Source: Owenia fusiformis
Taxonomy: Eukaryota; Annelida; Polychaeta; Sabellida; Oweniidae
Reading direction: 5' to 3'
Length of the DNA: 64,000 nucleotides
NCBI GenBank assembly: GCA_903813345.2
Contig: CAIIXF020000009.1
Location: 27,006,740 to 27,070,739, forward strand
In this document: positions 547 through 56,200 of the stretch, one piece after another
Position numbering within the stretch: the first letter of the stretch is position 1
Layout of the letters: every line of letters starts with the position of its first letter
Translations under genes and position numbers: made by a program
Notes under the pieces: model-generated
Seen by the model: only the letters and a program-made list of their open reading frames with translations
Database searches by the model: none
What the model was told of the DNA's origin: nothing

Positions 547-868
547 TGTACAGCACATGATCCTATGCGTACATAACGTTATCCTTTATGGCCATAACTT
601 CATCCCAGATGTACATAACTTGATCATTATGTACACATCGTGATCCCATATGTAGATAAATGGATCACGTCTGTATAGTAAAAAACTTGATACTGTGTAC
701 ACATGCATACCTTCCTTGATCCTTTCTGTACAAAGCATAAATTGATCCTATATGTACATAACTTGATCCTATATGTACATAATATGATCCTATATTTACA
801 AAGCATAAATGTACATAACGTGATCCTTTATGCACATAGTATAATCTTATATGTACATAACTTGATCA
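547..868. repeat. Degenerate ~21-bp minisatellite running into the TRP stop codon
   Basis: Imperfect copies of a unit like TGATCCTATATGTACATAAC are repeated about 14 times, with divergent and deleted copies. The right-most copy covers 847-867. On the minus strand it supplies the last codons of the TRP channel (DQVMYI and the stop), so most of the array would be 3' untranslated sequence. Confidence 0.8.
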
Positions 869-2774
869 GCAGAGCCCCCCGAGCTAGATTTCGCTTGGTC
901 CGTGACAGTCTGTCTATTTGGGTTAAAATGAACCTTTGGTTTCTTTGCAGCTGGAGCACTGGAACTTCGTGCTACTTTATTGTATCTTCTAGTTACTTCT
1001 CCAACCTCGTCAGGAGGATCAGCAACACGATTTTCATCAAGGGATTCGCCTGAACATTCAGCAAAACCATAAGATGGTTTACTATTATGAAAGACATCAT
1101 CGTGTTGGGTGTTAACATTCTTCTTCTTGTTTGTCTCTGGTGAGTCATGTTTCTCATAATTACCATCTGTTACCTCATTTTGGTTTGGATGGTCATCGTT
1201 CACATTGCTGCGATCATTTGCATCTTTGTGATCATCATCTTTATTATTGTGATTCCCTGAGCTGACAGATACAAGGATGGATGCCTGGGTTGCCTGGAGT
1301 TGAAGGATCTTCTCAAGCTGGTCTTGAATATTTGACAACACCTCCTCATGACGCTCCATTCTAGCATTAAGACCCCTGATGCTGAAATCCTGAATATCAT
1401 TCACTCTATCTCTAACCTCAGTCACTAAGCGGTTGGTTGTGTGAATCGGAGGATTTTCCCACTTTAGTAGTTTGTCCTTGTAGTTTTCCACCACTTTGAC
1501 TTCCCTGTAGTACTTTGTTCTGTAATTGAAGTTGAGGAAGATGCTGTTGCGCTCGACCCTGGTTATGATCCATGCCCGATTGATTTCCAAGCCACGCTGA
1601 CAGTCCTGCTGTATATGTTGGTAAGTGTCTGTGAGACGTGCAATGAGGAGATTCAGCAGTATGATTATGCAGACAGTGAGGTATATAACCATTAATGCAA
1701 TAGAGAACCATTTATACTCAATATCTGTGTATTCGGTAACTGGTTGTTGTTCAACGAGTGTCCGTAGCCCCATAAACATGGTACCTAATATTGATATTGT
1801 GTTATTTAGCTGAGTCATGTTGCCTTCACCACGCAGACCCAATTGGAAGCTACCACTGAATGCCAACAGGATGATACCAAAAAGGATCATGAATTGAACA
1901 ATGTCTTGAGTGATTATGACCCAAAGAATTTGGGCGAAAGCACCAGATTGCCTGAACACAGCCGCATATTTGAAGATCCTCACTGTCCAGATGACATATC
2001 CAAGAGAATAAATGTACCACTGTTCGTTGACATCTAAAATCCTCAGGGGAATCACTGTAAGCAAAAGTGATATGCTCAACAAATCAAAATAATTGAACAT
2101 GTCCTTCCAATAGTCTCGTCTCATTTTCACGAGCTGTCGGATTTCCAGAAAGAGATGAAAGAGGACAAAAACTACACTCCAGACTTCGCAAACAGCTCTG
2201 GCAATCTGTAATGGTGTGTCATAAACCATTGGGTCAGGGGCCTGACATGCTACTGCAACAGCAAATGTCAGAATGAAGAGTGACACAAGGAACATGATGG
2301 CGCTACAAGTGAACCTGAACTTTGCAAAATGTTTCCATTTACGTCGTATCAACAACCTGACTGCATCATGGTATATATAGTCCTTATCTCCAACATACGC
2401 TAGCTTATGAAGTCCAGATTTCCCCCTTGTATTGAACTTTGAGTGATTTGGAGGAAAGCCTTGAGAATCGGCATCCAGCATTTTAAAATAGATCTTATGT
2501 CTGTCCACTGGGCCAAAACGGTCAATGAGACAGTTCAGTAGTGCCTGAACAGTCGCTTTCATTCCAAGGTCAACTAAATTCGCAAGGACAAACTCTGCAG
2601 GTGTATTCCCCTGTGCAGTATGTAAGTCTCTAGCAATGTTGTTTGGCATATAGGCCAGCATAAGGGCACCTATCTCATCATATTTATTCTCTATTGCAAT
2701 ATGATATGGTGTCTTGCCTTCGTTGTCTCTCATGTGAGGAAGAGCATTCCTGTCCAACAGCTTTTGACACACAC
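847..2774 (-). CDS. TRP channel terminal exon: ankyrin end, six TM segments, tail
   Basis: The exon starts after acceptor CTGCAG with two bases completing a glycine codon. Counting from VCQKLL as residue 1, S1 is about 149-176, S2 191-212, S3 227-246, S4 252-273 and S5 289-310. The pore helix is about 320-340 and S6 353-385. A charged, heptad-like stretch runs about 445-500. The last 140 residues are hydrophilic (Asn, Asp, Lys, Ser rich). The whole channel core sits in one intronless exon, which is long for this gene. The stop is at 847-849. Confidence 0.93.
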
Positions 2775-5700: not shown

Positions 5701-8700
5701 CGCGGGACCTCCGTATCCCACGACGTTCAACCGCAAAGTAGCCTCAGTCTACGCCACTAGGCTGCCCTGCTTAGGTGTCAAAACTGCTAAAAAATAATGT
5801 AGTTGTTACAATTATTTGCTTGGATAAACATGATATTACATTTCTTAATTGATTAATCTGATTTAGTTGGAATCGAAGTTCGACCAACGATCAAGGCAAT
5901 GCAATCAACAACTCTTGCAAATGTGAACGGGAGTCGTAAAGACAGAAAGTACAAGAATCGTGATCAATGTAATAGAGTATAATATTTAAGACAGATCTTT
6001 GAATATTGGGTAGGAAAAACATTCCAAAATGAAGAAGAATCATTTAGAACATTTGATTTGTTGCCAATATATCAATTGCGTCTCAAATGACTGAAATAAA
6101 AGGTATAGCGGGACACTAAAGACTATGAGTGAAAACAATTATAATTGACGCATCCAGATCGCTCACTATAACGGTAAGTGAATAGGTTTGTGTAGATACG
6201 TCGAGGAAAATAAGCTATTTCGACGCTTGAAATAATCTGATTACGCTTTAATTACGCGTGGCTATAAACACAAGTGTTGTGTAGAACAAAAACAAGAAAA
6301 CTGAACGACTTATTAAGGAACTGTACTTCAGTTTCAAAGTGTTCAAGATATTTCCGCATGTTCAAAAACACAAAATTTATATTTTAGGCTATCCATATTT
6401 TGAAATCTCGTTAAGGCGACGCTATATTAAATAAAAAGTACAAAAAATGACTGCCATATTTTTTTGATAAAGACACATGTTTTTAAAATCTGTTTACCTT
6501 GTATATGAATTGTGTATCTTGACTAATGAAACATGTCAAAGTTAACATCACACATAAACGCATTTTTCCAAACTATGAATTGGAGGTGCATGGATCCCCA
6601 AAGCTAGCATGAAGAGTGCGAAGTGAGGCTAATTTTGAAAGTTTCAAGGAGTAGCCTTGCAACAGTCACACATTTGCAAGAGTCTAAAATTTCCACAAAT
6701 CATCTTACCTTTCCCAGGAACAACGAAGGAGCATGAAAATGTGCACTTCTTGCATTGTTAGAGTATAATAAAGCTCAAACCATTGTAAATTCTAAATATT
6801 TCATGTCCACATTTTTTGCCGGAACTACTTCTAGACTTCCTGATTAATCCTCATGCAAGTTTTGTGACTACACCAAGTGGCATGGATTATCACTTGTATG
6901 TTTTATCTATTACAGTGTAATTATCATGATAGATACATGATAGAGGCTTTATGAATGATAAACAATGGAAACATGAATGAAGATAACTCTGGACTAAAAA
7001 ATAGTTCCAGGAAACAAAATGGTGGACATGAAATATTTAGAATTCACAATGGTTTGAGCTTTATTATACTCTAACAATGCAAGAAGTACACATTTTCGTG
7101 CTCCTTCGTTGTTCCTTGGTAAGATAAGACTATATCTAGAAATTTTGAATTCTTGCAAATGTGTGTCTGTTGCAAGGCTACTCCTTGAAACTTTCAGAAA
7201 ATAGCCTCACTTCGCACTCTTCATGCTAGCTTTTTGGAGCCATACACCTCCAATTCATAGTTATGAAAAATGCGTTTAAATGTGAGGTTTTCTTTTATGT
7301 GTCTCTTTAGTCAGGAAATGCATTCACATACAAGGAAAACAGTATACAAAATCTTCTGACTTTATCAAAAAAATATGGCTCCCATGTTTTTGTACTTTTG
7401 ATTAACTTAAATGTCACCTTAAGGTCTCGTTTTAATGAGATTTTAGGAGATCTGCATTTTTAATCACTAAAGACTAACATTTTCTTCTATTTGAATTATG
7501 CGTGTGATTTTCTATCAAAACAACTTAATTTTTGCACTGTTAATTACCTTTATTCAAATTCTAGAGATTTTCAAGTTTTCTAAAAATGGTCGGGCTAAAT
7601 CCCCCTTGACAAAGTAACATACATTGGTAATATAACAGCAGGCTTTCGTCAATGTAACAAAAGCGAGGGGCTTAGTATATGAATTACACCTTCATTTACA
7701 AAACAAATTCCAAATCGAAGAAACTTATTAAAACTAGGCTATATTTTCTAGCTTTGGGCCAAATTATAATATGTAACTTGACTTATCAGTAGGTTTAAAT
7801 CGAGAAAGCAAAAAATTCGTAACCAGGAAGTTCATCCATTTTTTTACATTGACGTTCCGTCAAAGTAACTAGTTGTGGAACAGTAACTGGCATTCGGTAT
7901 AACGCCTTTCTGTACAATGCGCGTCGGTATAATGGGTTTCGGTATAATGCGCGTCGGTATAATGGGTTTCGGTATAATGCGCGGACCCCGTAAAATTCAC
8001 ATAAGTACATGTACAAGTTTGGCCATTATTTCCCAAAATGTGATTGTGTTGAGACACTATTTACAGTAAATCCCACTCGCACCATCTTTAAAATAAAATT
8101 TTTGTAAATTCAGAATTGCCATGTCGTCGATTGAAAATTATTGGATACACGCCTGACCATCGACAAGGTACAGTCACGTGACAGTGATAAAATATACCGT
8201 AGTACACTTTTGATGTACTATGTCATTTCCGCCATTTTAGATCGCCATTTTCTAGAATGAGGAAGCGAGGAAAGAACCAGCATTGATTTGATCAATATTG
8301 TGTCAGTTCATCATCGGGTAGTTGTTGCATTCGATTTGTAATTAAGTTGCAAATATGCATATCTACCTCAAATGATCCTCAGCAACTTCAATATCTTGTT
8401 ATAGATCTACCCAGTACGTCAGGGATCTCTAAATCTTGACTGAATTTCGCAAAATTCTCTCTAATTTTTGTTTTGCTATGCAAATAACAGCCAAACTACG
8501 ACTAACACAACTTAAGATAAGTATACAAATATACATCCAGAGTTAATGCAAAACCGCTTTTTACTTTGGATGCTACTACGAAAAATAGATAATGTATGTT
8601 GTCAACTCGAATGTATGTTGTCAAATTGGCCTTACAGATCTCAATTCACAATATAATAGGCATATCAGATATATTTACTCTTATATTTTGTCCGTTAATC

Positions 8701-11700
8701 CATAAAATTGTCATTGATATGATTACATTTCAATGTTACTATTTCTTTTTTTGTGTTCCATAACCTGGCTTTTGAACTTCTGCACTTTCCAGATATATAG
8801 AGTGTCCCAAAGCATCCCCCCAGGCAGACATATACCAATTTCTCTATAGTATGTGTCATACACACCGACTATTGTTTTGGTGTAAAACTGACTTTAATTT
8901 TGGCCAAACACTAACTTTTGAAATTCCTGTAACTTTTTTCCATTTGTGAGTTGAACCATGATACTCGGCAAATTAATGTAACTTTGGATGAGCTTTAAAA
9001 TGATTATGACACATACATAAACTATGGAGACATTTGTATATGTCTGCCTAGGGGGCCCATACTTTTGGGACACCCTATAGCATAAATTTTGAAAGTCATC
9101 TTGGATTAGCTAGTATATCGCCATGAACTCCTTAAGATTATTAAAATTCATAAAAGTGCAACTAAACATAACGTAACGTACCGACGCCGAGTGGTCAAAG
9201 AGGTCGGAAGATAACACGCCATGGTCACATATTAATCACCATATTAACACTTTCGTAAAATAAAATAGCATTCAACGAAAAAATCACGTTTACCTGTTTA
9301 TCTGTACTAGGGATACAGGAGCATGTTCGTTGAACATCATGTGTTACGCATAAAAACCTTAATGTATTTTGAAATTGAATCATTGCAATGTTTAATATTA
9401 TAACTCATGAATTTCAATTACAGGGACAACATACACTGTGAGTTGACAACGTACATTTCTGATTTTTTAAATTATACCAAATGCATGAATATTTATTAAA
9501 TCTTCACCCGTCTTAAACTGTGTAGTTTAGAGAAACACATTCTCATAAGAATATTCGACACTCTGAGACGTCAGGGGAGAAAATTATCAAAGGAAATGTG
9601 TAAAAAACAACATTTTTCCAACCGAACAATTGTATGGGTAGACTTACAACGAAAAAAATCGAGCACTGCTCGAAGATCTTTTAAGGTAATTAGAAAAATA
9701 AATGTCTTTGAAATCGAATACACGCGAAATCAAACATGAAATCCTTTATGTATTCCTCTAATTTATTTTTGAAAACCTGCATCAAACCTACATCATGAAA
9801 ATCAGTTAATAGTGACATAGTACATCAAAAGTGTACTACGGCATATTTTGTCACTGTCACGTGACTGTACCTTGTCGATGGTTAGGCGTGGGATATAAGT
9901 GTAACATCTATTTATCTTGATCGTGTTAAAAATATAGCAAACATGATCACGTTTACATAATTTGTATACATGTATCTCCTTTATATAAAGGGCAATAAAT
10001 ATATACAGTGCGTATCAAAAAAACGCAACAGATTTTTATCTCGAAAATGCACAAAACCATTGATAACAGCATTGATTTCATTCAATGCACCATAAAGCCA
10101 TGTGTCTCCTCTTTACAATGATATATCATTCATGGATATTTGGTCATGGTTGGGCGAATAATCATTCCATTTGCCAAGTCGGCCAAAATTAGCTTTTGAC
10201 CAAGTTATAAACATCGCAAAACTCAGTGTACGGAGCCCGATGCAAAATTGGAACAAAACATAAAACCAATGCTGACTGCATCCCTTTCATTCAATGTACC
10301 AAAAAGCCAAATTACTCCTCTTTGCAATTAGAATATCATTCATTCACAGAGAGTCAAGGCTGGCCGAATAATCATTAATTTTGCAAAGTGGGGCAAAATT
10401 CAGCTCGGACCCAAGTTTTAAACATTGCGAAAGTCAGTACAAAGGGCATAGGGGTATTGGAAGAAGCTGTGATAGGTGTGGCATAGACAGTAAAGTATTC
10501 ATACTCATACTCTTGCAAGAATACATCCTATACCCCTCCAAATTGCCACCACTTCCTTGCATATAAAGATGCGCTCATCTGTCCACGTCATGCATGGTTC
10601 AGCCCTGAGTCATCTGTGGGTTAAAGCAGAGAAAAGCAGCCCATGGGCAATTCTTTCTCGAGGTTTTGCAATGTCTGGTGGAGGAATTGTGAGCACAGAT
10701 GCTCCTGAGATAGCTCCAAAAGAAAAAGTCACAACAATTCAAGTCAGGAGAACTTCCATTGGCACTTAGCCCTTGCACTGATTTTTGCAATATCTAAAAC
10801 TTGGCCCAGAGTTGATTTTGATCCACTGTGCAAATGGAAGGATTTCTCACCCAACCATTACCACATGTGAATGAATGACATATCATTGCAAAGAGGAGAG
10901 GCGTGGCTTTATGGTACATCAAATGAAATTCATGTAGTCATCACTAGTTTTGGAATTTTACGAGATAACTACTTGTTGCGTTTTTTTGATACGCCCTGTA
11001 CATACATACATACATCACACCTGTGAAAGTTATTCATTGCGAATGGTTATAAAACTGTGACAAATTGTTACAGAGTCACTGAATACCGATCCTGACAACT
11101 GAGGCCAGCTGCAATCCGCAAGACATTGGTCACAAATAAAGTGATAGCTTTTACATTATAAACAAGGCATTAACATGACAAAATGTCACCACATTGTAAG
11201 TAATTGGAAATTATTACGCCGAACGCCGACATCAGAACACCGAACACATCCACAAAAAAAGTTGGAGATTATAACAATATGTCACTACTTCTGGTGGTGA
11301 TATAATAAATGGAATACTCCTAACCATTGGGAGCCACCTTGTAGTAAAGGCATTAATTATTTCATATAACTTGGTTCGGAGATTTATATTACATATCATT
11401 ACCTGTGGGATTACACACAATGAGTTACCAAGAGATGTTATTGAAAACGTAGTCACATCTAGACAATAGTACAACCGATGTAATACATAACAGAAACGTT
11501 TCTGATCAGGTGTGATATTTACTTTGGTTTTGCATATTACATGTATGTCACCACCAGAAGTGATGACATTGTTATCATCTCCAACTTTTTTTGTGGACAG
11601 TGTTCGGCGGTTGGTATTCAGCGTTTGGTGGTTGGTGTTCGCTGATCGGTGTTTGGCATTCGGTGTCTGTAACAAATGGCAGGTGGTAACATTTTGCATG

Positions 11701-14945: not shown

Positions 14946-15241
14946 TGGTTTATTTAGCTTAAACTCCTCACTGACTCTTATGAAGGGTAAATGGTCCATG
15001 ATCCAATTATAGAAACTTGATTTAGTGAAAAGGGGGTAATTAGTTCAGATATAGTGTACTGCATGTGACAGTCCATTGTCCTTTGTGGCACACTGGTTTT
15101 TGATAGCTTGCAAGTCAATTCCTTGTTCCATCGAAAGAGAATGCACTCTTCTTTGTTATCACTGTCCATTCTTTAAAATGGTCTACAGTTCATTCTGTTG
15201 GTTGCACCGTTGTACGGCATTTAGAGATTCAGACAATAATA

Positions 15242-15827
15242 CAGGGTGGTCAAAAAAAATGGAAACCCTGTCACCATTTTCCTCACATCTTTGTCATTTT
15301 AGGAAATTACTCCCTGATATTTAGCACATTCGTACATCATTCAATTTTCTACCAACCTACCATATTTCATGACTATCAAATTGATAGTCACAATGTTACA
15401 GCACTTTAAACAACATGCTCCAGTGGCCAATATTGCACTTTCGGCAAACCTGCACCTATCATCCAAAATGTCCCTACCTAACTTCAACCTGTGGCGATAC
15501 ACCAAAAAAGAGTGTACGAGAATAACCCCAGGACAACTGCAGACCTCATAAAGCAGATCATCCATGTTATTCAGGCCATACCTGCTGAAAAATGTAGTCA
15601 GATCATTGACAACCTGTTCAGATTTGCCAATAGCGCGATGGTGGCCACACTGAGGCATCTTGTTCAAAGTGCTGTACCATTGTGACTATCAATCTGATGG
15701 TCATGAAATATGGTTAGCTGGTAGGAAATTGAATGTTGTACATATGTGTTAAATTTCAGGAAATAATTACCCAAAATGACAAAGATATGAGAAAAATGCA
15801 GGGTTTCCATTTTTTTTGACCACCCTG
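15242..15827. mobile_element. Mariner-type element with TA target
   Basis: Termini CAGGGTGGTCAAAAAAAATG (both ends, inverted) are flanked by TA at 15240-15241 and 15828-15829. Arms pair over more than 100 bp, including ATTTCATGACTATCAA-type sequence. The centre is a transposase relic, annotated separately. Confidence 0.9.
15460..15685 (+). pseudogene. Mariner transposase C-terminal relic
   Basis: One frame reads SLPNFNLWRYTKKE. After a frameshift the next continues KRVYENNPRTTADLIKQII and later IPAEKCSQIIDNLFRFANS. This order (proline-rich step, aromatic block, VYxNNPRT, then a C-terminal helical motif) is typical of mariner/Tc1 transposase C-termini. The frameshift and missing N-terminal two-thirds make it non-functional. 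Confidence 0.85.
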
Positions 15828-16344
15828 TATGAGTGCCAATAAAATATCTAGAAATGCAACGGGACAAGTGTTCACATTTTGTGTTCTATTCAGATACATT
15901 ATCGGTGTCCACTTACTCTTATTTTACTGTAAATTGTAAAACATGGGTGTATAATTCACAATTTCCTTTTAATGTCATCATTTATAGTGGAGAATACACA
16001 TTATATTCTCAATTTTCATTTTCTATATCCTGGATAAGTTTCCCATAAAGCAGTTAATGTTACATTATTCTGTCTCTAACAAAGTAAAATCATACATTGG
16101 AGATAATTCATGGAACTAATATTGTGTTTGTTTACTTAATTATACTTATCCAAACACAAGTGCAAGCCATGAATCTCTTGTCTTCAATTCAAATGGAATT
16201 TGAGTATCAGATTTATAATTAGTTAAACCAGTCATTCGGTGCCAATAAAAATGACAGTCCAGTAGGGATATGAGATATTAAATATGAACTCCAAATACAA
16301 AATTGCAAATTAATTTGCCAATAAGCACTACTGTAAGTGACATG

Positions 16345-18359: not shown

Positions 18360-19135
18360 ATCATTAAACCCCTTCTCATTTTTTCCTCAAATGCCCTCAA
18401 CTTGTAGATGATAGAATCCAACTGCTTATAGATCTCCATATAACTGGTTGTTTAGAAAGATTCTTGTATGCTAACTCTGTTAGCAAAGTAAATATGCTTT
18501 TACATGGTAACACTGAACTAAGTAATGAAGATAATATAAAGCATATAATATGAAAGCAACTTTGAAATTCTTAAAAAGCAACCAAGATTGACTAACATGT
18601 GTATTACACCACACCGGAATTTACCCCTCTGCACACTGTTTTTGTGAAGCATTCTAATATCAGCCTTGATTGTGTTTTCCTTTTATTTACATATGAACAG
18701 TTATGAATAATTGTAACATATTTGTATTTGTTTTGCATACTAGTACTAGTATATGGTATAATTACTTTGAAGTTCAACAGAAATGTTAAATTGATTACTT
18801 TGTTGAACTTCCATTGTATGATATTAAATGTTATAATATATGACCTTGAAATAAAAATGATTTATAAAAAAAACAAAAAACATCATTGGTGTTTTTATAA
18901 TGTTACCACAAATAATAAAGTGAGTGAATGAGTAAATTAATACTCTGAGTATATGGTGAATAATTGCTTCTTTTGCTTCTAAATTATTGCTTCATATTCA
19001 TCATTTTTAAGTTTGAAACATAGGCTTAATATCATTTCCACCCATTCCAATCAGATTCCAAATGGTCTCTCTCATTTCATCATCTATGGAATTGCAGAAG
19101 AGAAGATTTCACAATAATATGAAGTATAATATATA
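18360..19135. other. Intergenic DNA, no gene recognised
   Basis: AT-rich. Short frames are not supported by splice sites, composition or family resemblance. Confidence 0.35.
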
Positions 19136-19137
19136 TA

Positions 19138-20097
19138 CGAGGGTTGATCATAAAGTTCTCATAATATCTTTCTAATTTCTTTATTTTTAAATATATTCTA
19201 ATGAAATTTTGACAGAATGTGCAGCATAGAATGTCTTATTAATTCAGCAAAAAATATTTAGTTTAACAGAAATATTAAATAAGAAATGGTTGCCATAGTA
19301 ACCGGAAATCAAGGTACCCGGGGCAAACATGTTAAAATGTTCACTTGAATATGTTGTTAAGTGCTTTAACAATTAAATAAAATGATCATGTAAATTGTGT
19401 GATGTCATAGGGGATGCTTTCATGCTTCATTAGATGTGATACCAGAGTCTGAGACTCAAAGCTAATGATCAGAAATGACTGAGTAAGAGAATGCAATAGA
19501 TACAGAGATCTTCAGAAAAATAAAATTCATACTGATAAAATGTAATGTTAAGTTTGTAAGATCCTTTGGTCAGACTAAACATGATCTAAAACAAATATAT
19601 TGCTCAGATATCAGCAAAATTACACCCTGTGTGTGGTCTATACATGTTAAAAATTATCTAAAGGGGCAAAATCAATTTTCCTCAGGATATTTGACAAAAC
19701 AGTCATGGGGCCTAGCAGTCACTTCTAATGAAGCATAACAATCATCCATTATGAGATCACACAATTCACATGACCATTATAATAGTTCACAACAGTCAGG
19801 AGCACATATTATTTGACAATTTAATGTGTTTGATAGCTTATTTGACAACGTATTATGTATTTAAACATGATTAAAGGGGGCTATTCTAGCTAGCCTAGTT
19901 TTTTTTATTTGCCCCGGATGCCTTGATTTCAAGTTACTATGGCAACCATATCTTATTTATTGTTTCCTTTATTTTAAATATTTTTGGCTGGATTAATAAA
20001 ACATTCTATGCTGCACATTCTGTGAAAATTTCATAGGGAAATATTGAAAAATAAAAAAGATAAAGAGATATTATGAGAACTTTATGATCAACCCTCG
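19138..20097. mobile_element. Mariner-type element with long TIRs and TA target
   Basis: Termini CGAGGGTTGATCATAAAG and (inverted) the same sequence are flanked by TA on each side. Arms of roughly 330 bp pair, including GAATGTGCAGCATAGAATGT against ACATTCTATGCTGCACATTC. No transposase remains. Confidence 0.9.
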
Positions 20098-20739
20098 TAT
20101 ATATTCTCCATTTGACCATTCTAATGAATTATAATAATTTCAAAAGTTGTCACAAAACTATTTGCATTAACTTATGGGCATTATTAACTTATGGGCATTA
20201 TGTATACCATATGTATATATTGACATGTTTTTTTTAATTTCAATTGATTGTTTAAAACATAATTTTTGAACAAAAGTTCAGGAAATGAAACTAAATATTG
20301 TAAAATAACAATGCAATCTAAATCAAAAAGTTCAAAGAGAGTACATACCTCACTATATAGGGTAGAAAAATCACCTTCTGCATGTATTGAAAATCACATC
20401 TATCTTTAACTACATGTACATGTAAATATAACATTGTCACTTGTCACGGTCTAGCTGTCAACTCCAGCCAAATAGCATGCACTGTCAGCAAGTACAATAT
20501 AACAGCATGACAAAATTAATATTATTATCCTCTTACTGATAAATGACTACAATAACATAAATAAGTGAAATACTGTACTGCAAAGTATAATATAAGGATC
20601 TATCATTTGCTCTTGAGGGCCTGTCCTTCTCAGAATAGAATACTGGTAAAGGAATATGTATCTCTTGGACTTGTAAAAGTTATACTTCTGATTTTTATAA
20701 AATTATTTAAATTATTTATTCAAAATCAAATCATTACAA
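20098..20739. other. Intergenic DNA with a 2-copy short duplication
   Basis: The only structure is a direct duplication of CTTATGGGCATTATTAA-type sequence near 20165-20205. No exon or element recognised. Confidence 0.35.
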
Positions 20740-22423: not shown

Positions 22424-22522
22424 GATGAAAGACTTAAAAGATGTACATGTGTATAAAATCAAATATTGCATTCTATCAAATATCAGTGAATACACATGTT
22501 AATTTGGACGTTGTGTACTTAA

Positions 22523-25316: not shown

Positions 25317-25485
25317 TCAGCTCCTAACCATACTATTGCTGGTGATCTCCCCTCTGAGTAAAGCTTCCTGTACCCTTGACAAGAGGAATTGTTTATCACG
25401 TCCCTCTAGGGCTAACTGTTCACTCAATAACTGTACGTAATGTTTGTGGCCTACAGACACAGCATAGTAGTAGTACAGGAGCAGC
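25317..25485 (-). CDS. TMC: TMC exon 17 (last)
   Basis: Acceptor TTCTTTAG; one base completes a glycine codon. It encodes the end of the last membrane segment (LLLYYYYAVS) and the conserved cytosolic tail with SEQLALEGRDKQFLL, ending SNSMVRS and stop. Confidence 0.93.
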
Positions 25486-28400
25486 CTAAAGAAAAAGGTT
25501 ATAATCATTTTATTAAATTCCATTATCAATAATTTGAATGTAATGTCAGGGTGCTCAACAGGCTTTTTACAGACAAAGGCCAATTTCAAAAATTTCCATC
25601 AAAGTCACATAAAATTCTGCATTCAAACTCAAAATGCTTATATTTATGTGTATATTGTGCAAAAAATTGTGAAATCAACTGAATCGAAAAAAATTGAGGA
25701 TTTGAACCTACAATTTTAAACTTACCCAAGTACAATTACGAAGGGGATATAGAATCCAGGTGAACCAAGGAATGTAAATATTTGTTGTGGCAAACCAGGC
25801 CAGGAGTTGACGAGGTCACCTATTGTAGACCACATCGTATAGCTTTCTGAGCTATGGATCCTAAAGGGGCTGCAGCCTTTAGAAGGCTTAATGCTGAAAA
25901 TGCAATCATTGTGTGTGACTGATAATCGCAGAGTCATTAGATTTTAAAGCTATCAAATGTTTAATGATTTTGGTTTCATTTTGGTTGTTTTTTGTTTTTA
26001 TTAAAATATTTGTAGTTTCTCTTATGATTAATTTGCTTGTTTCTTTTTTTACATGCATATTTTTTAGCATATGATTTTTGTTGAGTTATTACATTCTTAT
26101 AAAGCAAGGTGTTTAGTATGTGTTGAAACCCACATAGCTGTAGCACAACTTAGTCAGAGTAAGGTATACTTACATAGCTATAACGTAACCTATGGGTACA
26201 CAGCAGAGGGCAAATGACACCAACAAGATCACCATGAAGAAGAAATTAGCTTTAGAAGCCCTATAGGGTCGTTGGGAGGGCACACAGCTCTTCAATAGTG
26301 TGAACTAAAATGTATAAAATTTCATAAAATATTTGCTAAACAAGACCAATGTCCAACTTAAGGGATAATAGCAATCTTAAGGAAAACTCTAGATATCATA
26401 GATGTTCAGAAAATAATATATGTTGGAAAATTAGCATATTTTGGCACCAGGTTTTGGAGTTGTTAGTCAAAATAGACAAATTTTATCATTTTCATTGTGA
26501 ATATTGTTATACCTTTTTCATGAAGCAAAATGTTATACCTTTTTCATGCTGTAAAATGTTATACCATTTTCATATTGCAAAATGTTATACCCTTTTCATG
26601 TTGCAAAATGTTATACCTTTTTATGTAGCATATTGTTATACCTTTTTCATGCAGCAAAATGTTATACCATTTTCATTTAGCAAAATGTTATACCTTTTTC
26701 ACGGAGCAAAATGTTATACCTTTTTCATGTAGAATAGCAGGAAGAACTTAACAAATGTCATTGCCGGGATGAAAGGACTGAAGAATGCACCTAGCCTACA
26801 AACATATAACATTCAGTTTGCACAACAAATACTGGACTAAAGCCATGCTAAAATCTATAATAAAAATGGCACCATCTGGCGCCAGTGGGCTCACATGGTG
26901 AAAAAGCTGATTTGTCAGAAATAACGCTAAGTCACCATTCTGAGCACTTTTTAAGTGATTTTGGCCATTTTTGGACCAAAATTGTCACAAAGTGAACCCC
27001 CCTTGGCAAATCCTGGCTACGGGCCTGATGGATGAATGGATGGATAGGGGGTGAGAGAGATGGATGAATGGATGGATGGGGAGAGAGGGATCGAGAGAGG
27101 GATGGACAGAGAGACGGTTGGGTGGTTGGATTTTGGATGGATGGGCAGACTGACAGAAGGACGGGCAAGTGGGTGGTAACACAGGTTCACCATGTGAACC
27201 AGCAAACAATAGTTAATAGCCTAAATGGGATGTAAAAATCTTGACAACATCGAGAGATTTCAATACACAGTAGTACTTATTAAGCATTAACATTTCTATT
27301 TACTTTAACACAGGGTGTTCCAAAAGTAACAGGACTGGTGCTGGCATTTTGTTAATTTTGCATTGAGTATCTTCAAATTTGCACAAATTGTACTTTGAAA
27401 TATTGCAACTTAAATTATTAAGTTTTAGAAAAAATGATGAAATGCGGTTAGAGCTATGGTTACTATAGTAACATGACATTCCAATACCCGGGGCAACTTT
27501 TTTTCCTGAAAATGTGATTAATGACTGAAGAAAGTATCTAATTCACCTATTATAATACAACACTTCTTATTTATTTTATTAGTTCCTTTGTTGTAAAGGT
27601 GTTGCTATACAACTCAGATTCAGGTATAATTTCATAATGATAATACTATTTATTCAATTTCCTGGAATATCACTATGTATAACAGTCTGAACAATTCACA
27701 GTTGAGTTTTTGAAAAGACCCTATTTCAAGCCAGTCATCTACCTTGATAGCGTGCCTGCCCGCAGGTCACCATTAAAGACCATGTAGCTATAGAGGAGCT
27801 AGGTCTTGAGGTCTAAAACCATGCACCATACTCTGATCATGCAATATCTAAATTTTACTAATATTGAGAACAGAATGCTAATCAGTGCTGTAAGACCTTT
27901 AAAGATGAGAATGACCTTCTCCAAATTGTCCAATCGACCCTGCGTGACATGTCCTCAAATGGCTTCACTCATGTGTTTGGGTCATGGATACAGAGTACTA
28001 CTCCTGTACTGACCAAAGAGGAGCCTATTTTTCAAAGTAGAGGATACATAGGAATATCAAAAGATGTAAAACAAATGTAATTCCCACCAGTTGTTGCATT
28101 TCAACTTTGATATGGCATGTACAAAATGATATGGCATGTACAAAATGCTTAATGTCTCTGTAACCTTTTGCGTGGAATTTTCCCCCGGGTATTGTGATGT
28201 CATGTTAATATGGCAACCATAACTTTTCCCGAGTTTCATATATTTTGTCGAAACTTTGCAGTCTTGGTAACAATACGTAAAAGTACATTATGTAAAATTT
28301 TGAAGACGATTGGTGCATATTTGACAAAATGCCAGCACCAGTCCTGTTACTTTTGGAACACCCTGTACACCTATTCTAGTCGCATTTATTGCGCATATAG

Positions 28401-31400
28401 TGATGAGTAATTCATGCTAAATACGCTGAATTAATATTTGTAAATACAGTAGGATATAAATAAGCTCTGCAAAAAGTCTAATCGTATAAAATAATAAAAA
28501 ATAACATATACAATACTGCTACACACAATCTAAGCTTACCCCTCTATAATAATCAAGTCATACAATATGAACTAGTAAATAGGAACCATGGAAAAAGGGG
28601 TGTCAACTTACCAGCATAATACTTGGGAATAGACTACATCTAAAACACATTTGGAAATCTGAAACTCTGGTGGGCCTACCCATTGAACTAGTTTCACATT
28701 GACAAAGTACTTCACTAAAAGCCTGGAAACAGAAGAATGATATCTCTATAAAAATGTGTAAATGTTTATTGTTTAATCTTTCTTTATACTTTTCATGTAG
28801 CAATTGAGCAGCCAATATTCTTGGTAAATAAATAATAACTTGAGGCATTAACATGCAAAACGTCACCACCTACCATTTGTTACAAACACTGACTGCTGAA
28901 CACCAAACACCAACCACAATCTGCCGAACACTGTCCACAAAAAATTTTTGAGACTTATAACAATTTGTCACCACTTCACTTGTAGAGGTGACATAAAAAT
29001 GGTTAGCATTTCCTGCTAAGCTGTTTCAAAGGTCCACTTGGTATTAACCATTTATTTTTCACAGCTGTAAAAATGAACCTATAAAATATTATATATGTGA
29101 CAGGGGCTACTATGACTTACTTTCTTGGAAGTTCGTAGAGGAATGTTGAAGCAAAGTTGACTAAGAAATCCAGCAACGCTAACTTATACAGCTGCTGTCC
29201 TACATATGTCTCCCAACACTGAAATTAGATGAATGACATGAATGAAAATAACATTGGGGCAGTGGTAGAATTCAAACTGACGTCAATGTACATATTTCAC
29301 ATCAAGGGAACCATTTCAATTAAGGGAACAATGAATACTCGACATTCAATCAGGTGTACAGTGGTACTTCTACAAATTCATTTACAATAAAACCTAAATA
29401 TCCAAAGACCTCTCTAATCTGAATAATATCAATATGAACACGTTTTGGTCCCATTTTTTAATCTGCCATAGACTTACAGGTTAAAAGAACTCAAAATGAG
29501 AACCCCTTCTATTCTGAATACTTGTGGCTTGTCCCAGTGCCAATTGGATTAGACAAGATTTACTATATTTAAAATCAGTCATTATGTTATTTACAATATC
29601 ATGATAATCAGTACTCAATAGTCTGACCAACCAAATGGCTTAGATATGTGCAGAATTAAGAGTGCCGAACTCAGTAAATGATTATTATATGTGCTGTATG
29701 TACGACCTTCGTGGAATCTGGTGAATAATACCAGAAGAGTACATAAACCTAAGAATCTTTGTTCTACATTTTTGTTCACCAAATATTTCTATGGTTGCGA
29801 CTTAAAACGTTTTTGTAGCTAAGAATGTTCTGATAATGTATCAAAGCCACTACTAACCTGTGTCTTTCTATCACAATATGTACAGGGGGCATTGTCTTCT
29901 GCTGTGCTGTTACACAAGATCTGATTGGCTATAACTACAATGAGGACAGCCAATGAAGACAGCCGAAGAAAAACAGTTCTGAAATTTAATATATAAATTA
30001 GTAACCCTCATAACCCAATCCTCCTAGAGAACGTCACATACTGAACAATATATAGATTTTAATAACACTTGCTAGAAGAGTTATGCTATGGACTTCTTAA
30101 ACTCATCATAAAAAATTGTTTGATGGTATAAAATATTATTCATAACTTTTACTCTCATATCAGCCAAAATGCACATAAGGGTGATAATCAGCTCACATGC
30201 CTTATAAGGGTGACATAAGCTCAGATACCTCATAAGGGTGATACTTACCTTAAAAGGATATTCAGCTCACATCCCTTATAAGGGTAATATGTAACTCACA
30301 TACCTTATAAGGCTGAAAAATTAGTTAACATACCTTATAAGGGTTATATTTAGCTCCACAGCTGGTGCATACTCTTCCCAAGTGACAACCTTTAGGAAGA
30401 CGATGGGGATGATAACATTGAGCAATGTGATGGTCAAAGCTGGGAGATACTGAATGAGTAGCACAAGAAATGCATTTGTAACTGTTGATGCCAGCTGAAA
30501 GAGAGATATAAAAGGTTGTTCAAAGGTATTGCATGATAATTATCTCTGAATAATTCTGAAACATCAAATATTGTCATTATTAATTTGATAATCAATGGTG
30601 TCTCTCATTTGAATGGTTCGGAGAAATAGTCAGTATAGCCAATCATTTTTTGGTAGGGTTCAGTTGAAATTTGTGTATCATCACTTAAAACAGATTTTTG
30701 GAAAAATCACTCTTCTAATAATATCAAATATCACTCTCATTAACTCCAATGAAGGTCTTTGTAAATTGATATGAATCATATATATCATTGATATAACCTC
30801 CACATCCTAAAAAACCAACAACACATTATCATTTTTACCTTATATGTCTCTTCTTGGACTTTAAATATACAAAAGAAAGCTCCACCCAATATCGCCAATA
30901 CACCGATATTCACGATGATCCTGATGAAATAAAGACGACATTTCTGTCCCCTGTTCAAGTTTTTTTGTTTCACCTGTCTTCTCTGCTCAATGAGGTCTTG
31001 CTGAAATATAATAAGTGATGTTTGTAGAATTTACTTATTTCTTTAATTTAGATCTCTATGTCTGTTATTTTAAGAATCCTATTCAGGTGTCATAAATCTT
31101 GTAATTTCGTAGTATAAACATAGTACATGCCGATGTGTCAAGAACCTAAGCTACAAGTCTAAGAATAAAAATTATATTTATACAAAAACAACAAGACATT
31201 AACATGCAAAATGACACTACCTGCCATTTGTTACAAACACCAACCACCAAATACCAACTGCCGAATGTCAAACACTATCCACAAAAAAGTTGGAGACTAA
31301 AACAATATATCATCACTTCTAGTGGTGACATAACAAAATAATTCCAGATCTCCTACCTCCAAATCAAAACTTATGTTTTTCATTTTGAGTGCTGCAGGTT

Positions 31401-34400
31401 TCTCCCTTGTAATACCATACTCCCAGCCACAGAAGATCTTGTTGCAGTACTGGTAGAATCTTTCCTCTCTGTTTACCAGGCTGGCCTTGATCCCTGAGGC
31501 AGTGCTGGAATACAAAGTATTAAACATGAACTGAAAGTCTAAAACAACCTAAAAGTAAATGATAGAGTAATTCCTAGTATAGGGACATATGATCAAAAAT
31601 TTATAATTAAAAAATACAAAACAAGCTTTTAATACACCACTTCTGAACAATGTTGAAAATGCAATCATTTAAATTGAATAGAAAGATTGAAGGAAAGCTG
31701 ACCTATCTAAACTAAAATGATGCCTTTTTAAAAAATACAAAACAAGCTTTTAATACACAACTTCAGTGATAAATAGCACTTTGGAGAGCAAATGGCCACT
31801 GTGTAATCTACCCAGCATTCCCAAAACCTTATCAGATATTGGCTACAAGTCTGCTCATACATCCGTAAGTAAAATGGATAACCAGTTTTGATGACAGGAT
31901 TTACGTGGCGCCTGCATGGACCCAGGCAGGCCCACAAGCACAAGATGATGACAATATAACAGTTTCTAAGTGCGATATGGCACCTACCTTTGCACCATTA
32001 GAAGAAGACTGATTGTAAAGTATGCCCCAACAGAACACAGGTAAGCAAGGGGCATATTGTATTTCTCCTCCATCTCTGATAACACACTTGTGTAAGTCTT
32101 ATTGAAATAGTATCCAATGAACATTTCCGTACGTTCCATCCAGCCCTGAAAAGGATGACAGAGTAAAGACAAGGCATTAACATGCAAAATGTCACCACCT
32201 GCCATTTGTAACAGACACCAACCACTGAATGCCGATTGCAAAACACCAAGTGGCAAACACCATCCACAAAAAAGTTTGAGACAATAAGAATATGTCACCA
32301 CCATAAGTGTCAACAATAAGATGGAAACTATAACAATATGTGATATGTAAACACCAAACAAGATCATCATCAGTATATTAGTATCATAAGATTCTGTGAG
32401 ATCAGCCCTATAGAATTATCTTTAGCATAATATTACTTACAACTAAGAGGAACTCTAAGTATATACATAAGACATTTAATCAACATCATTGTTCTCCACA
32501 GAATTTTTTCTCAAGTTGGTGCAAAATTCTCATTTTCACAATTCAGACCAAAACCGGTCAAAATATGCAAATTTTACATGATTTTTCATACTTTCAAGTG
32601 GGTGTAAATGTATTTTCTTGTGGGTGCAAGCCTGTTTTCAAAAACACAGGTGGGTACTGCCCCCACTTGCTTTAATGCTGGGAGATCACTGGACGTGCTA
32701 GTTTTTCTTGAGACAGCCTCATTATCAAATCTTGAAAATCACCATTTTGTAAAAATGAATTGAATTTTTCACTACAAATTACAAGCTTCAAATTTGAAAC
32801 AAACATTAGGAGAAGAAAGTGGAAAAACATACCGTTCCCTGAAGAAAGTCTAACACTTGCTGAATGGCAGGCACAACTTGAGCAGCATTCTGAGTGGCAG
32901 TAAAATTCTCCACATATTCTTTGTATCTAATACTGCAAGTTAAAGACTGACACCCATAGCTTGCGTTGCTTGACCTACTTTGGCCTGAAGGTGTCACAAT
33001 AGGCGATGATGTCACATTAGGTGATAATGTCACATTAGATGATGATGTCACATTAGTCACTGACTGAGCTGCGGCTACCACAGGTTGAAGTACCATAGTG
33101 TCATTTGTACATGTTTGAATTTCAAATGTTTCTGGCTTTAAGACTTTTTGTGGTACCAGGATGACGCCAATCATGATTATTGCGATGAGAAAATTCAGGA
33201 ACATTAATGTCTTGACGAACCTGAAGTACGATAGTACCCCTGTGCCATAATAGCCTGAAAAAAACATACATCTTCTTTTAAACTTTTGTGATTGTTCATT
33301 ACACGTCTTTAATGCTAGCTATTGGTTATCATTGAGTTCAACTTTCAAGCCGAAAACAGGTTATAATCGCAAGTTTATTTTGAATCCAGCTAAAATCATT
33401 TTATTACATGGCCAGATTGCTAAATCTAAATCTTTTTGAACCCATAGCGTGCTCTCGTAAGTAGAATTTTGAAGAGAAGGACCTTTTCTTTATTCTTCCC
33501 AGTTTGGCATATTCATTGTAATAAGGCTTTCTAGATAGGCACTAACTAGAAATTCTTTAATCAGGAATATTGGAGAATTTAAAAATAAATTGAAGCCCAT
33601 TATCTTAAAAGACATGTATCCGGAGAATTTTCTTTATGTTTATAAACTCATAAAGGTAGTAATGGGTCATTCTGTAGTTATGGGTCATTCTGTTGTAATG
33701 GGTTATTCTTTAGTTATGGGACTTTCTGTAGTAATGTCATTCTGTTACATACCTTCTATGGTTTTCAAGGATCCTTTCCATACTTCAACTTGGGAGAAAA
33801 GGTCACTAGCTCGAGTTTTAAACTTTGCCCATCTCTGAAAAACAACATTGATTATGAATTGGGCATAAGAATATTAAGAATACAGGTGGACACAATTGAC
33901 ATATGTCACAGGGGTGTAGCCAGCAAAGGGGGGGGGTTGCAATTTTGGGCTTGTTTCAGTGCCAGCGAAGCAAGACCCAGTAGGTTCAACCCCCCAAATC
34001 TATAAAAATTTACATTGTATATGGTGCATTCTATGCATTTCAAATGAAATTTGAAATTGTTTTACAAAATTGCTTTTTTCATTTTTGTGGGGGTGGGGGG
34101 CACCCATCAGTCCCTGGCTACTTCTACGCCCATGTATCAATTGTCAATTGCTAAAAGGAGGTTAAGTATCCAACCTATTATTCTTAGATTATCAAAATAG
34201 GGGCTTGTCTTGTATCAAATCTGTGACTGCCCTGTACCCTTGTCTCAGAGAAAGAATGGGAGGAGGGGGTATTGGGGCTTCATGTGAGCCTAAATGTTCA
34301 TATAATTAACAAATCCCAAACTAAACATTTCATATGGTTTATATTCTATGTCAGAAGAATATAATCATACTAAGGGTGTTCAATGCAAGAGAGAAATATG

Positions 34401-51503: not shown

Positions 51504-51928
51504 CCATGAACAGGCATAATAACATTTAATACACAAAATATGATTGTGTATCTAATACACATATAAATTAACATAACTGATAATAAGCATTTATAAAGAG
51601 TATTATATCACAGATATTCTGTTATTGACTAACCACAACAGATACAACACATGTCACAATGAGGCACCATTGGCTCAGCTTATCATAATTCAAATTAGTA
51701 AAAAATTACTGAAGATTTAAGGAAGTTTTAATTCCTTTTAGACTTGTTTTGATTTGATGATGTTTTTAACCTACATGTCACTATGTCTAACTTGTGTATC
51801 ACTGTTTATGACTGCACAATAAAAATAAATAAAAAATATTTTGCAAGAGCTTATTTTTTACTCCTTATTGACTTCAATTCTTTGATCTCAATTAGCAAAC
51901 TTTGATTAGATTATGAAGATTCAACACT

Positions 51929-53132
51929 GGTGCCACTGCATAGCCAAGGCATTTGGTTTTTTCGTGGTTTTAGAAACATCACATTAACATGTCACATCAC
52001 CATCAGAACTATTAGGTTGTGTTCTTACGACACTAGTGCCACTGCATATTGAAGGCATTTGGTTTCTTTCATGGTTTTAGAATCACATTAATATGTCGCA
52101 TCACCATCAGAACTATTAGGTTGTGTTCTTATGACACTAGTGCCACTACATACTGAAGGCGTTTGGTTTCTTTCATGGTTTTAGAATCACAACATTAATA
52201 TGTCGCATCACCATCAGAACTATTAGGTTGTGTTCTTACAACACTGGTGCCACTGCATATTGAAGGCATTTGGTTTCTTTCATGGTTTTAGAATCACAAC
52301 ATTAATATGTCGCATCACCATCAGAACTATTAGGTTGTGTTCTTACAACACTAGTGCCACTGCATACTGAAGGCATTTTGGTTTCTTTCGTGGTTTTGGA
52401 AACATCACATTAACATGTCGCATCACCATCAGAACTATTAGGTTGTGTTCTTACAACACTAGTGCCACTGCATATTGAAGGCATTTGGTTTCTTTCATGG
52501 TTTTAGAATCACAACATTAATATGTCGCATCACCATCAGAACTATTAGGTTGTGTTCTTACGACACTGGTGCCACTGCATATTGAAGGCATTTGGTTTCT
52601 TTCATGGTTTTAGAATCACAACATTAATATGTCGCATCACCATCAGAACTATTGGGTTGTGTTCTTACAACACTGGTGCCACTGCATATTGAAGGCATTT
52701 GGTTTCTTTCATGGTTTTAGAATCACATTAATATGTTGCATCACCATCAGAACTATTAGGTTGTGTTCTTACAACACTGGTGCCACTGCATTCTGAAGGC
52801 ATTTGGTTTTTTCTTGGTTATGGAAAAATCACATTAACATGTCGCATCACCATCAGAACTATTAGGTTGTGTTCTTACGACACTAGTGCCACTGCATATT
52901 GAAGGCATTTGGTTTTTTTCATGGTTTTAGAATCACAACATTAATATGTTGCATCACCATCAGAACTATTAGGTTGTGTTCTTACAACACTGGTGCCACT
53001 GCATTCTGAAGGCATTTGGTTTTTTCTTGGTTATGGAAAAATCACATTAACATGTCGCATCACCATCAGAACTATTGGGTTGTGTTCTTACGACACTGGT
53101 GCCGCTGCATATTGAAGGCATTTGGTTTCTTT
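51929..53132. repeat. ~107-bp minisatellite, about 11 copies, built from the DAGL 3' end
   Basis: Units run GCATCACCATCAGAACTATT, AGGTTGTGTTCTTACAACAC, TGGTGCCACTGCATATTGAA, GGCATTTGGTTTCTTTCATG, then a TTTTAGAATCACA spacer. On the minus strand each unit encodes [25 protein letters not shown] and a stop. That is the C-terminus of the DAGL gene, which uses the right-most copy (53047-53132). About ten copies follow in the presumptive 3' untranslated region, plus a partial left copy. Confidence 0.95.
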
Positions 53133-53266
53133 CAGCCAAAATGTCTAGGGCTTTAGATACAGCATCTGGCATGTGGTCCATGATCATACTGGGACTAACT
53201 ATGATGTCACTAAAGTCCTCCATCTCTGCCCAATGTGGCAGGTAGCTAGGTGTCCCGCACCATGAA
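53047..53266 (-). CDS. DAGLB: DAGL last exon
   Basis: Acceptor TGTATTTTCAG with one base completing Ser. It reads [20 protein letters not shown], then [20 protein letters not shown] with the putative catalytic His. The final NQMPSICSG...DGDATC part is encoded within the ~107-bp minisatellite, so the C-terminus could vary between alleles. Confidence 0.95.
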
Positions 53267-56200
53267 CTGAAAATACACAAACATTATCGGACATTAACAT
53301 ATATAAAATAATTTTGGCTTATGAGACATTAAAACTGAATATCATTTACACTTCAACAAATTTGTTCGTGAATTTTTTTTCTCAATTCCAACGAATTTGG
53401 ACATTTCAGCATCTTAAATCTTCAGTATTTTCATAAGTTATAGGCCTATTTGATCGGCTATCTCTATTTTCAGAAAATAAAATGTTATATGACAAACAGG
53501 AGTGATATGGGCAACCAGAAGTTTTACATACCTGCTTTTATCAGCCTCTTCTATGTAAAAGATTTTTCCAGGGGGCCAGAGACGTTGGTTTGTGACTCTG
53601 GACTGACCACTGTTCACTATGGCTGACTGCAGAGATTCCTGAATTAAAACGGAAGAACTTATCTGACTTTATGGGTGATGACGAAACACATTTCCTCTGT
53701 TGACCTCCATTGGGCATCAATTGGAAAAACAATTTACAAATATTTCAAATGAATGTTTTTAGTGTAAATTAAATATATAGTTTATCATCATGAGTATATC
53801 TCACTCGACACTCCTTTAATTGCATGTAAAAAGAGTGCCACTGTTATAAGTGTAACTCAAAATGAATAAATAAATATTTCATTCTAATCTCATTGGGCCT
53901 CACTGCCCCAAATATGTTTATTTCAACTTTTGATTCATCATTTAATTCCTTGCACATGTAGGTAAGAATAGACGAACATCACTGCATAGTTTACCTGGAA
54001 GTGTGTTACTATGGAGTCATAACGAGGTGAGTCCCTGCTACTACTGCTCAGTAGAGAAGTTGTGCTACCATCGTCACTGTTGTCTCTTGTAACAGCACAT
54101 ATCACATTGGTACAAGCCCCTGTCATTATTTTATGCTGGAAAAGATAACATCATATTGCTACAAGCCCCTGTCATGCTTTTATGCTGGAAAAGATAACAT
54201 CATATTGATATAAGCCCCTGTCATTATTTTATGCTGGAAAAGATAACATCATATTGCTACAAGCCCCTGTCATGCTTTTATGCTGGAAAAGATAACATCA
54301 AATTGATACAAGCCCCTGTCATGCTTTTATGCTGGAAAAGATAACATCACATTGTAATAAGATTTATTGCATTCTAAAAGAGCAACCCCCCCCCCAAAAG
54401 GAACATATGCAACTTTTATGACAAATACTGTCTCAGCAAAATTGAAAAATTGAAAATTGAGTAACTAGCAGACACGATTTACTGAAATTCATACACATGT
54501 AAGTGCCATAAAGTTAATAAGTCTAAATCTACATATGACTGTAAATTGATACCTGCATAGAAGTACACACCTTAGGTTTGTTACAGTCCTTTATAATCTT
54601 GAGCACTTTTACTTTGAGTTTCTCCATGGTAACAATCCCTAGTCTAGGCACAATATCTTCATTTAATACGACAGAACATACAAAATCTTCGGTAAACTTT
54701 GCAGTGGACTGGCTGCAAGAAAAACAAGGCATTAACATGACAAAATGTCACCACCTAAAACAATTTGGTCAATTTAAGGCAAGTTGGAAAATACCTTTTG
54801 ACCTTAAGAAGGTTTGATTTGAACTTCTTAGAACATGTAGATGATTTTGAAAAAAAAATTCGTCAATTTGAAGCAAGTTGAAAAAATACCTCTTTGACTT
54901 TTTTTGGCATTGAGAAGGTCATTGAAGGTCAAATGTCAAATGTAAAGTCAGATTTGAACTTCTGAGAACATGTAGATGAATTTGAAAAAAAAATTAAGTA
55001 AATTTGAAGCAAGTTGAAAAAAGACCTTTTTGACCTTGAAAAGGTCATTGAAGGTCAAATGTAAAGACCTTTTTGACCTTGAGAAGGTCATTGAAGGTCA
55101 AAGGTCAAATCTAAAGTCATATTTGAACTTCTGAGAACTTGTAAAAGTCAAATTTGAACTTCTGAAAAGATGTAGATGATTTTGAAAAAAAAATTTGGTC
55201 AATTTGAAGCAAGTTGAAAACAGACCTTTTTCTGAGAAGCAAGATGAAAAAAGACCTTTTTGACCTTTTTTGACCTTGAGAAGGTCATTGAAGGTCAAAT
55301 GTCAAATCTAAAGTCAAATCTAAAGTCATATTTGAATTTCTGAGAACATGTAGATGATTTTGAAAAGAAAATTTAGTCAATTTGAAGCAAGATGAAAAAA
55401 GACCTTTTTTGACATTGAGAAGGTCATTGAAGGTCAAATGTCAAATCTAAAGTCAGATTTGAATTTCTGAGAACATGTAGATGATTTTGAAAAAAAAATT
55501 TAGTCAATTTGAAGCAAGTTGAAAAAATACCTTTTTGACCTTTTTTGACTTTGAGAAGGTCATTGAAGGTCAAATGTCAAATCTTAAGTCAAATCTAAAG
55601 TCAGATTTGAATTTCTGAGAACACGTAGATGATTTTTAAAAAAAAAATTAGTCAATTTGAAGCAAGTTGAAAAAAGACCTTTTTTGACCTTGAGAAGGTC
55701 ATTGAAGGTCAAATGTCAAATCTAAAGTCAGATTTGAATTTCTGAGAACATGTAGGTGATTTTTAAAAAAAAAATTAGTCAATTTGAAGCAAGTTGAAAA
55801 AAGACCTTTTTTGACCTTGAGAAGGTCATTGAAGGTCAAATGTCAAATCTAAAGTCAAATCTAAAGTCATATTTGAATTTCTGAGAACATGTAGATGATT
55901 TTTTTAGTCAATTTGAAGCAAGTTGAAAACAGACCTTTTTGACCTTTTTGACCTTCAGAAGGTCATTGAAGGTCAAATGTCAAATCTAAAGTCAGATTTG
56001 AATTTATGAGAACATGTAGATGATTTTTAAAAAAAAAATTAGTCAATTTGAAGCAAGTTGAAAAAAGACCTTTTTTGACCTTGAGAAGGTCATTGAAGGT
56101 CAAATGTCAAATCTAAAGTCAAATCTAAAGTCATATTTGAATTTCTGAGAACATGTAGAAGATTTTGAAAAAAAAATTTAGTCAATTTGAAGCAAGATGA

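Follow-up and report, generated by a model that had tools for sequence, protein, structure and literature searches.

Five tandem arrays that each contain the end of an exon were found in three neighboring genes of the annelid Owenia fusiformis, within a stretch of 64,000 nucleotides (GenBank assembly GCA_903813345.2, contig CAIIXF020000009.1, positions 27,006,740 to 27,070,739 of the forward strand; hereafter "the window", with positions counted from its first base). The genes, represented by TRPV-like, TMC-like and class-3/DAGL-like lipase models, all lie on the minus strand, and the exon ends concerned are two stop codons, two splice donors and one splice acceptor. In all five arrays the functional site is in the copy at the array edge, with the other copies on the non-coding side. 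The arrays are quite probably ordinary minisatellites whose founding duplication happened to span an exon edge and which were then shaped by purifying selection, the duplicated splice and stop signals being by-products. All results refer to one sequence of the locus, i.e., a single 64-kb window, and to predicted gene models. The edge-spanning arrays, called by Tandem Repeats Finder (TRF) with self-BLAST of the window used besides, are as follows (a slash marks the exon boundary):

541..867, minus strand: array of ~21-bp units over the TRPV-like stop codon (TRF 736-867, extended to ~541 by self-BLAST)
26489..26736, minus strand: 26-bp array over TMC donor 26720 (FYMKK/gtataac; TRF)
30174..30356, minus strand: 28-30-bp array over TMC donor 30334 (ELNITLIR/gtatgt; two TRF rows joined by hand, the donor-bearing row being 30258-30356)
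51922..53134, minus strand: 104-108-bp array (11.4 copies) over the lipase stop codon (TRF)
54101..54354, minus strand: 49-bp array over lipase acceptor 54135 (TRF)

An earlier note on this DNA had described five such overlaps, with the functional copy at the edge of each array, and the TRF calls and gene models agree with it on both points; its start for the 21-bp array, 547, is also consistent with the self-BLAST limit.

Donors as well as an acceptor are affected within the one window, and the units of the splice-site arrays carry AG/GT splice signals, apart from two copies in the 28-30-bp array that have lost the GT (GGATGT and GCATGT). In the 26-bp array the junction reads ...CTACATGAAAAAG/GTATAAC, and nine intronic units start with GTATAAC, the first of these being the functional donor; the mean identity of the exonic copy to the others is 55%, and the intronic units show 74-84%. 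The unit of the 28-30-bp array (junction GAGCTAAATATAACCCTTATAAG/GTATGT) corresponds approximately to the last 23 exon bases and the first 7 intron bases. The 49-bp array contains five copies of cttttccag/CATAAA (i.e., GATGTTATCTTTTCCAG/CATAAAA...), and the identity of its edge copy (0.923) equals that of one internal copy. The motif CAATGTGAT is found at each outer end of this array, as would be expected if the duplication used a short direct repeat.

The last base of the TRPV-like stop codon is at 847 and the coding copy of the 21-bp array extends from 867 to 847, so that the predicted protein ends within a repeat copy (DQVMYI-stop); the other, diverged copies are located on the 3' side. At the lipase stop codon (last base 53047), copy 1 of the 107-bp array comprises the last 26 codons and the stop. 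This copy is closest to copy 3 (97% identical), with a 3' variant common to both, and copies 2 and 4 are 96% identical and have private variants in common, copy 2 being equally close to copy 9. These variants probably go back to the duplication of a dimer of which the coding copy formed part, or else to an exchange between the coding copy and the array. The matches between copies reported by TRF differ among the arrays (70% for the 21-bp array, 78% and 73% for the two rows of the 28-30-bp array, 85% for the 26-bp array, 90% for the 107-bp array and 92% for the 49-bp array), which suggests that the arrays arose in separate events.

The open reading frame is unbroken and phase-consistent across the splice-site arrays, and the copies are thus most simply read as duplicates of the exon edge that were extended into the intron. 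Worm TMC-1 (7usw) aligns without gaps, at low identity, over both of the array-bearing TMC junctions (...elnitlir/tvflrl and ...fymkk/ftllks), which suggests that the exon side is old and that the array copies are derived. At lipase acceptor 54135 the frame runs through the edge copy, the protein sequence of which we take to resemble vertebrate DAGL (KPKW.I..GA). Use of the extra splice sites would lead to an in-frame stop at all 18 sites tested (8 of 8 in the 26-bp array, 6 of 6 in the 28-30-bp array and 4 of 4 in the 49-bp array), sites being tested if they exceeded a rough consensus score of -2 for donors or 0 for acceptors. Moreover, four of the five TRF rows (score of at least 30) that lie wholly inside coding models have a unit length divisible by three (9, 12, 18 and 21 bp); one of these four is in the N-terminal exon 39408-38422, a model without homology support. 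The outward polarity of the arrays can thus be attributed to coding constraint, i.e., to in-frame stops and to units that are not multiples of three, and the edge position is partly a matter of definition, as any copies lying between the exon and an inner copy in use would become coding. One of the two readings offered in the earlier note, in which purifying selection at the exon edge produces the one-sided layout, is well supported.

From these observations we infer the following course of events. Approximately 13 to 32 exon bases (approximately 80 coding bases at the lipase stop codon) would have been duplicated together with the adjoining intron or untranslated region (UTR). Short direct repeats, such as CAATGTGAT at the 49-bp array, probably allowed this step through slippage or unequal exchange. 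Repeated copying afterwards would have lengthened the array towards the intron or UTR, and growth on the coding side would have been filtered out wherever units carried in-frame stops or were not multiples of three, which would keep the functional copy next to the exon. Under this explanation the extra splice and stop signals need have no function.

Two further junctions in the window were compared with the five edge-spanning arrays:

33656..33745, minus strand: 18-bp array, 8 bp past TMC donor 33753 (TRF)
57229..57392, minus strand: extra edge duplication at lipase acceptor 57229 (junction score 18; absent from the TRF output)

The first of these was also known from the earlier note, as a sixth array that begins just past a donor. 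It contains no copy of the donor 33753 junction, which shows background similarity only (score 10), and it was therefore not counted as copying a junction. At acceptor 57229, approximately 35 bp ending in cttatag/GGTTA have a second copy 128 bp upstream. An 82-bp dispersed element (57273-57353) sits between the two copies; its other copy, at 58787-58867, is 93% identical.

To assess whether arrays meet exon ends more often than would be expected by chance, we used 30 arrays, obtained by merging by hand 51 TRF rows with a score of at least 50 (overlapping rows and periods were joined, as were the adjacent rows 30174-30243 and 30258-30356, and for 55236-56593 the unit was rounded to 135 bp), and a wider set in which rows with scores of 30-49 were added (134 rows in 90 clusters, with the unit of each cluster taken from its best-scoring row). 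The 52 boundaries comprised 25 donors, 24 acceptors and 3 stops; a first run, which included the nulls for 25-64 kb and the founding-dimer null described below, used 47. Unplaced TMC exons between 38422 and 33834, start codons, UTR ends and, for the three exons with ends at 63807, 43240 and 38422, the acceptors did not form part of the set. When array density was maintained by circular shifts, 5 of the 30 arrays contained a boundary as compared to 3.06 expected (20% of shifts reached 5), and 5 of the 52 boundaries were inside arrays as compared to 4.68 expected (44% of shifts reached 5). For the 25-64 kb region alone, the corresponding values were 4 arrays against 3.24 expected (44%) and 4 boundaries against 5.80 expected (64%). 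The earlier note had envisaged a comparison with shifted boundaries, and within this window that comparison thus reveals no excess. In addition, a junction self-similarity score of at least 16 was reached by 6 of the 52 boundaries, by 10.9% of 4000 random noncoding positions and by 3.5% of 600 exon positions; in this respect exon edges resemble noncoding DNA and not exon interiors.

Several results weigh against a combination of neutral placement and purifying selection. The remaining exon-internal TRF row, at 29938-29964 (2.1 copies, score 47), has a unit of 13 bp, which is not a multiple of three. All nine intronic units of the 26-bp array, one of which holds the functional donor, carry the block GTATAACA unchanged (P = 0.015; column shuffle). 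The protein tails at both stop-codon arrays are reached by no homology match shown. Finally, since an array cannot grow over an exon, the first duplicated unit must itself span the edge, and under a null in which only this founder unit is placed (30 arrays, 52 boundaries) 0.87 arrays would be expected over a boundary as compared to the 5 observed (P ~0.001). The excess is smaller for splice sites alone (3 observed, 0.79 expected; P = 0.04), when whole arrays may take in no more than 90 coding bases (1.79 expected; P = 0.03) and when a founding dimer is placed (1.91 expected; P = 0.045). Unless these values (P from 0.001 to 0.045) reflect post hoc luck, they exceed what neutral placement would produce.

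Such an excess could be explained by a process that favors exon edges as starting points of duplication, e.g., through short homology between nearby splice signals or through transcription-linked breakage. The second copy of the junction at acceptor 57229 would also fit a process of this kind, as would reports that several amphioxus genes show the same arrangement at splice sites (in the relevant passages of PMC3087553 and PMC3902484). The founder-unit null is the closest of our nulls to the biology, yet its result moves with the array set: with the 90 clusters, 5 observed arrays compare to 1.67 expected (P = 0.02), and splice sites alone no longer show a significant excess (3 observed, 1.61 expected; P = 0.22), which weakens the case. 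Neither the array-density nulls nor the self-similarity of the boundaries, which equals that of random noncoding positions, point to a preference for edges, and two of the five arrays are at stop codons, where a process acting on splice junctions would not be expected to place them. Moreover, the boundaries, the array merge and the hypothesis all came from the same window as the pattern itself, and the founder-unit result is therefore a lead and not proof. Overall, a junction-favoring process, the second reading in the earlier note, gains from the founder-unit excess and loses on the array-density comparisons and the stop-codon cases, and we regard it as unlikely. A broader version, in which a duplication process linked to exon ends makes splice sites and stop codons alike preferred starts of minisatellites in this animal, so that arrays duplicating boundaries are common throughout the genome, possibly outside cephalochordates as well, appears slightly more doubtful still.

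The extra splice signals could instead be maintained by selection; as decoys or tuning elements, they would bind splicing factors or direct transcripts to nonsense-mediated decay and in this way set the transcript level. Scored with a rough, hand-typed consensus matrix, all four extra acceptors of the 49-bp array equal the real acceptor, five of the eight extra donors of the 26-bp array equal the real donor, and one GT in the 28-30-bp array outscores the real donor (8.6 against 5.9). The earlier note had called the arrays a reservoir of cryptic sites, and by these scores the term holds in a literal sense; the evidence that selection keeps the extra signals is weak. The invariance of GTATAACA rises to P = 0.20 if any 8-bp block is allowed to count, one of the nine units is itself the functional donor, and two copies of the 28-30-bp array lack the GT. 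Use of any of the extra splice copies tested would truncate the protein, and the extra splice and stop signals therefore look like a harmless by-product. Selection for the extra splice signals as decoys seems very improbable.

For the stop-codon arrays, the order of events could also have been the reverse, with a coding frame running into an older minisatellite and taking its stop and tail from it. As the tails lack a homology match, they could come from the array. The last residues of the TRPV-like protein are encoded by a repeat copy, and none of the PDB matches shown for its 648-amino-acid last exon extends beyond residue 443; at the lipase, the 97% identity between the coding copy and copy 3 suggests that coding and array copies probably exchanged sequence. 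Against this stands the layout and polarity of the stop-codon arrays, which are the same as those of the splice-site arrays, where the exon side looks ancestral. An array-first origin is thus a possibility to be taken seriously at these two loci, albeit not the one that we favor; ordinary minisatellites founded across an exon edge and kept outside the coding sequence by purifying selection remain our preferred explanation for all five arrays.

Minisatellite-like duplications that span intron/exon boundaries, at donors as well as acceptors, have been described in amphioxus as "mirages". According to the passages on them (PMC3087553, PMC3902484), they occur in Adh3, the globin genes BflGb6 and BflGb9, TnC and PGBD5, many of their units carry AG/GT signals, the authentic site adjoins the duplicates, and unit lengths range from 10-72 bp (Adh3) to 150-160 bp (BflGb6). 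Further traits of mirages are germline and somatic instability of copy number, regular splicing that proceeds undisturbed, and an edge copy exempt from homogenization. The passage on lancelet PGBD5 reports 60- and 108-bp repeats at splice sites and mentions troponin C (PMC3902484), and mirages have been proposed, in the part of PMC3087553 concerned, as a route to new introns. The arrays at donors 26720 and 30334 and at acceptor 54135 likewise span the boundary and carry AG/GT signals; they are new members of this known kind, and the pattern at splice sites is not new. The two arrays over stop codons, which the mirage passages of these papers do not mention, widen the pattern and are not classed as mirages. 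In the literature searched, the coverage of which was partial, no earlier case of a stop-codon array and no earlier genome-wide test of edge arrays was recognized.

Internal tandem repeats of minisatellite length at exon-intron boundaries have also been described for human genes in segmental duplications, where they vary between recent paralogues and can give rise to novel introns or remain exonic (PMC2812944); the arrays in the window share the position, and nothing in them suggests a new intron. The idea that introns can be gained when a segment bearing AG/GT is duplicated in tandem is discussed in PMC3087553 and, for potato RdRp, in PMC4974935. Tandem duplication has copied a segment with splice signals in our case as well, but the extra copies sit in introns that already exist or 3' of a stop codon. 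No new intron bounded by duplicated signals was found in the predicted models, in which the frames run from the edge copy to the neighboring exon.

The window provides five edge arrays, two at stop codons, spread over three genes, and these are loci at which the use of duplicated splice and stop signals can be tested, along with the edge preference of tandem duplication and the spread of this kind of array beyond lancelets. If exon edges were preferred, arrays that duplicate boundaries would provide a lasting supply of new splice sites and C-termini; if neutral placement and selection account for everything, the arrays would be a clear example of constraint alone making repeats look directed.

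The gene models on which the boundaries are based show consistent phases and open frames, with support from Pfam and PDB matches. Their exons are as follows:

847..2774, minus strand: TRPV-like last exon (ankyrin end, ion channel and tail; Ion_trans, E = 2.4e-16)
13781-13368 and 11998-11893, minus strand: TRPV-like earlier exons (splice sites and phases read from the sequence)
33834-33753, 33254-32833, 32145-31988, 31504-31357, 31000-30839, 30494-30334 and 29978-29858, minus strand: TMC-like exons 1-7 of 13
29218-29121, 28722-28612, 26795-26720, 26304-26174, 25893-25726 and 25485-25317, minus strand: TMC-like exons 8-13 of 13
62646-62336, 60491-60362, 59667-59584, 59149-58994 and 57229-57102, minus strand: lipase exons 1-5 of 9
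54712-54571, 54135-53995, 53638-53532 and 53266-53047, minus strand: lipase exons 6-9 of 9

The three TRPV-like exons form a single open frame of 815 amino acids; the best PDB match of the last exon is Inactive (E = 3.3e-15). A Pfam search for further exons in the read-through frames of 2.7-22.5 kb yielded one weak Ank_2 match (E = 0.1), located inside exon 11998-11893. The 13 exons of the TMC-like gene (25317..33834) encode an open frame of 668 amino acids (Pfam TMC, E = 6.6e-40; TMC-1 7usw, E = 7e-48), with the upstream exons incomplete. Two putative exons further upstream, 43748-43240 and 39408-38422, have only open frames and donors to support them. Each ends in phase 2, and by eye the two are partly alike (LL..LPS ... 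TLRRR); they may be alternative first coding exons of the TMC-like gene or belong to a second gene. The nine exons of the class-3 lipase gene (53047..62646) give an open frame of 472 amino acids (Lipase_3, E = 3.2e-16; diacylglycerol lipase 5xk2, E = 1.1e-11), and an extra upstream exon ends at 63807. The gene is presumably an animal DAGL, an assignment that we make from its motifs rather than from a match to an animal DAGL. Over the window, the proportion of G and C bases per 4 kb was 0.30-0.39 (in amphioxus it is near 0.41), and Rfam and tRNA scans of its whole length gave no matches.

Other repeats are frequent in the window. A minisatellite with 30-bp units at 2830-2917 was considered as the ~30-bp edge array and ruled out, as it lies approximately 55 bp upstream of acceptor 2774. 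Self-BLAST revealed that it and the 30-bp minisatellite at 7894-7983 are mutually inverted copies (95% identity over 77 bp), which suggests either the ends of a mobile element or an inversion. Long arrays found by TRF in lipase introns are located at 55236-56593, with a unit of approximately 135 bp that contains GTCAAATCTAAA and GACCTTTTT motifs, and at 57425-57989, with AAAACAGGAG runs. A dispersed repeat detected by self-BLAST is present in a dozen or so copies (at 11249, 11544, 20713, 22303, 23729, 28843, 31180, 32169, 45394, 50084, 56681, 59691 and 60588). Its copy at 32169-32301 ends approximately 23 bp before TMC acceptor 32145 and, by eye, a similar sequence seems to precede lipase acceptor 54712; the repeat may thus lend acceptor sequence. 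Self-BLAST also identified inverted-repeat or fold-back elements at 6411-7422 (a palindrome of approximately 1 kb), 10000-11004, 15239-15830, 19131-20104, 22518-23129, 27310-28366 (a terminal-inverted-repeat element) and 37074-37673.

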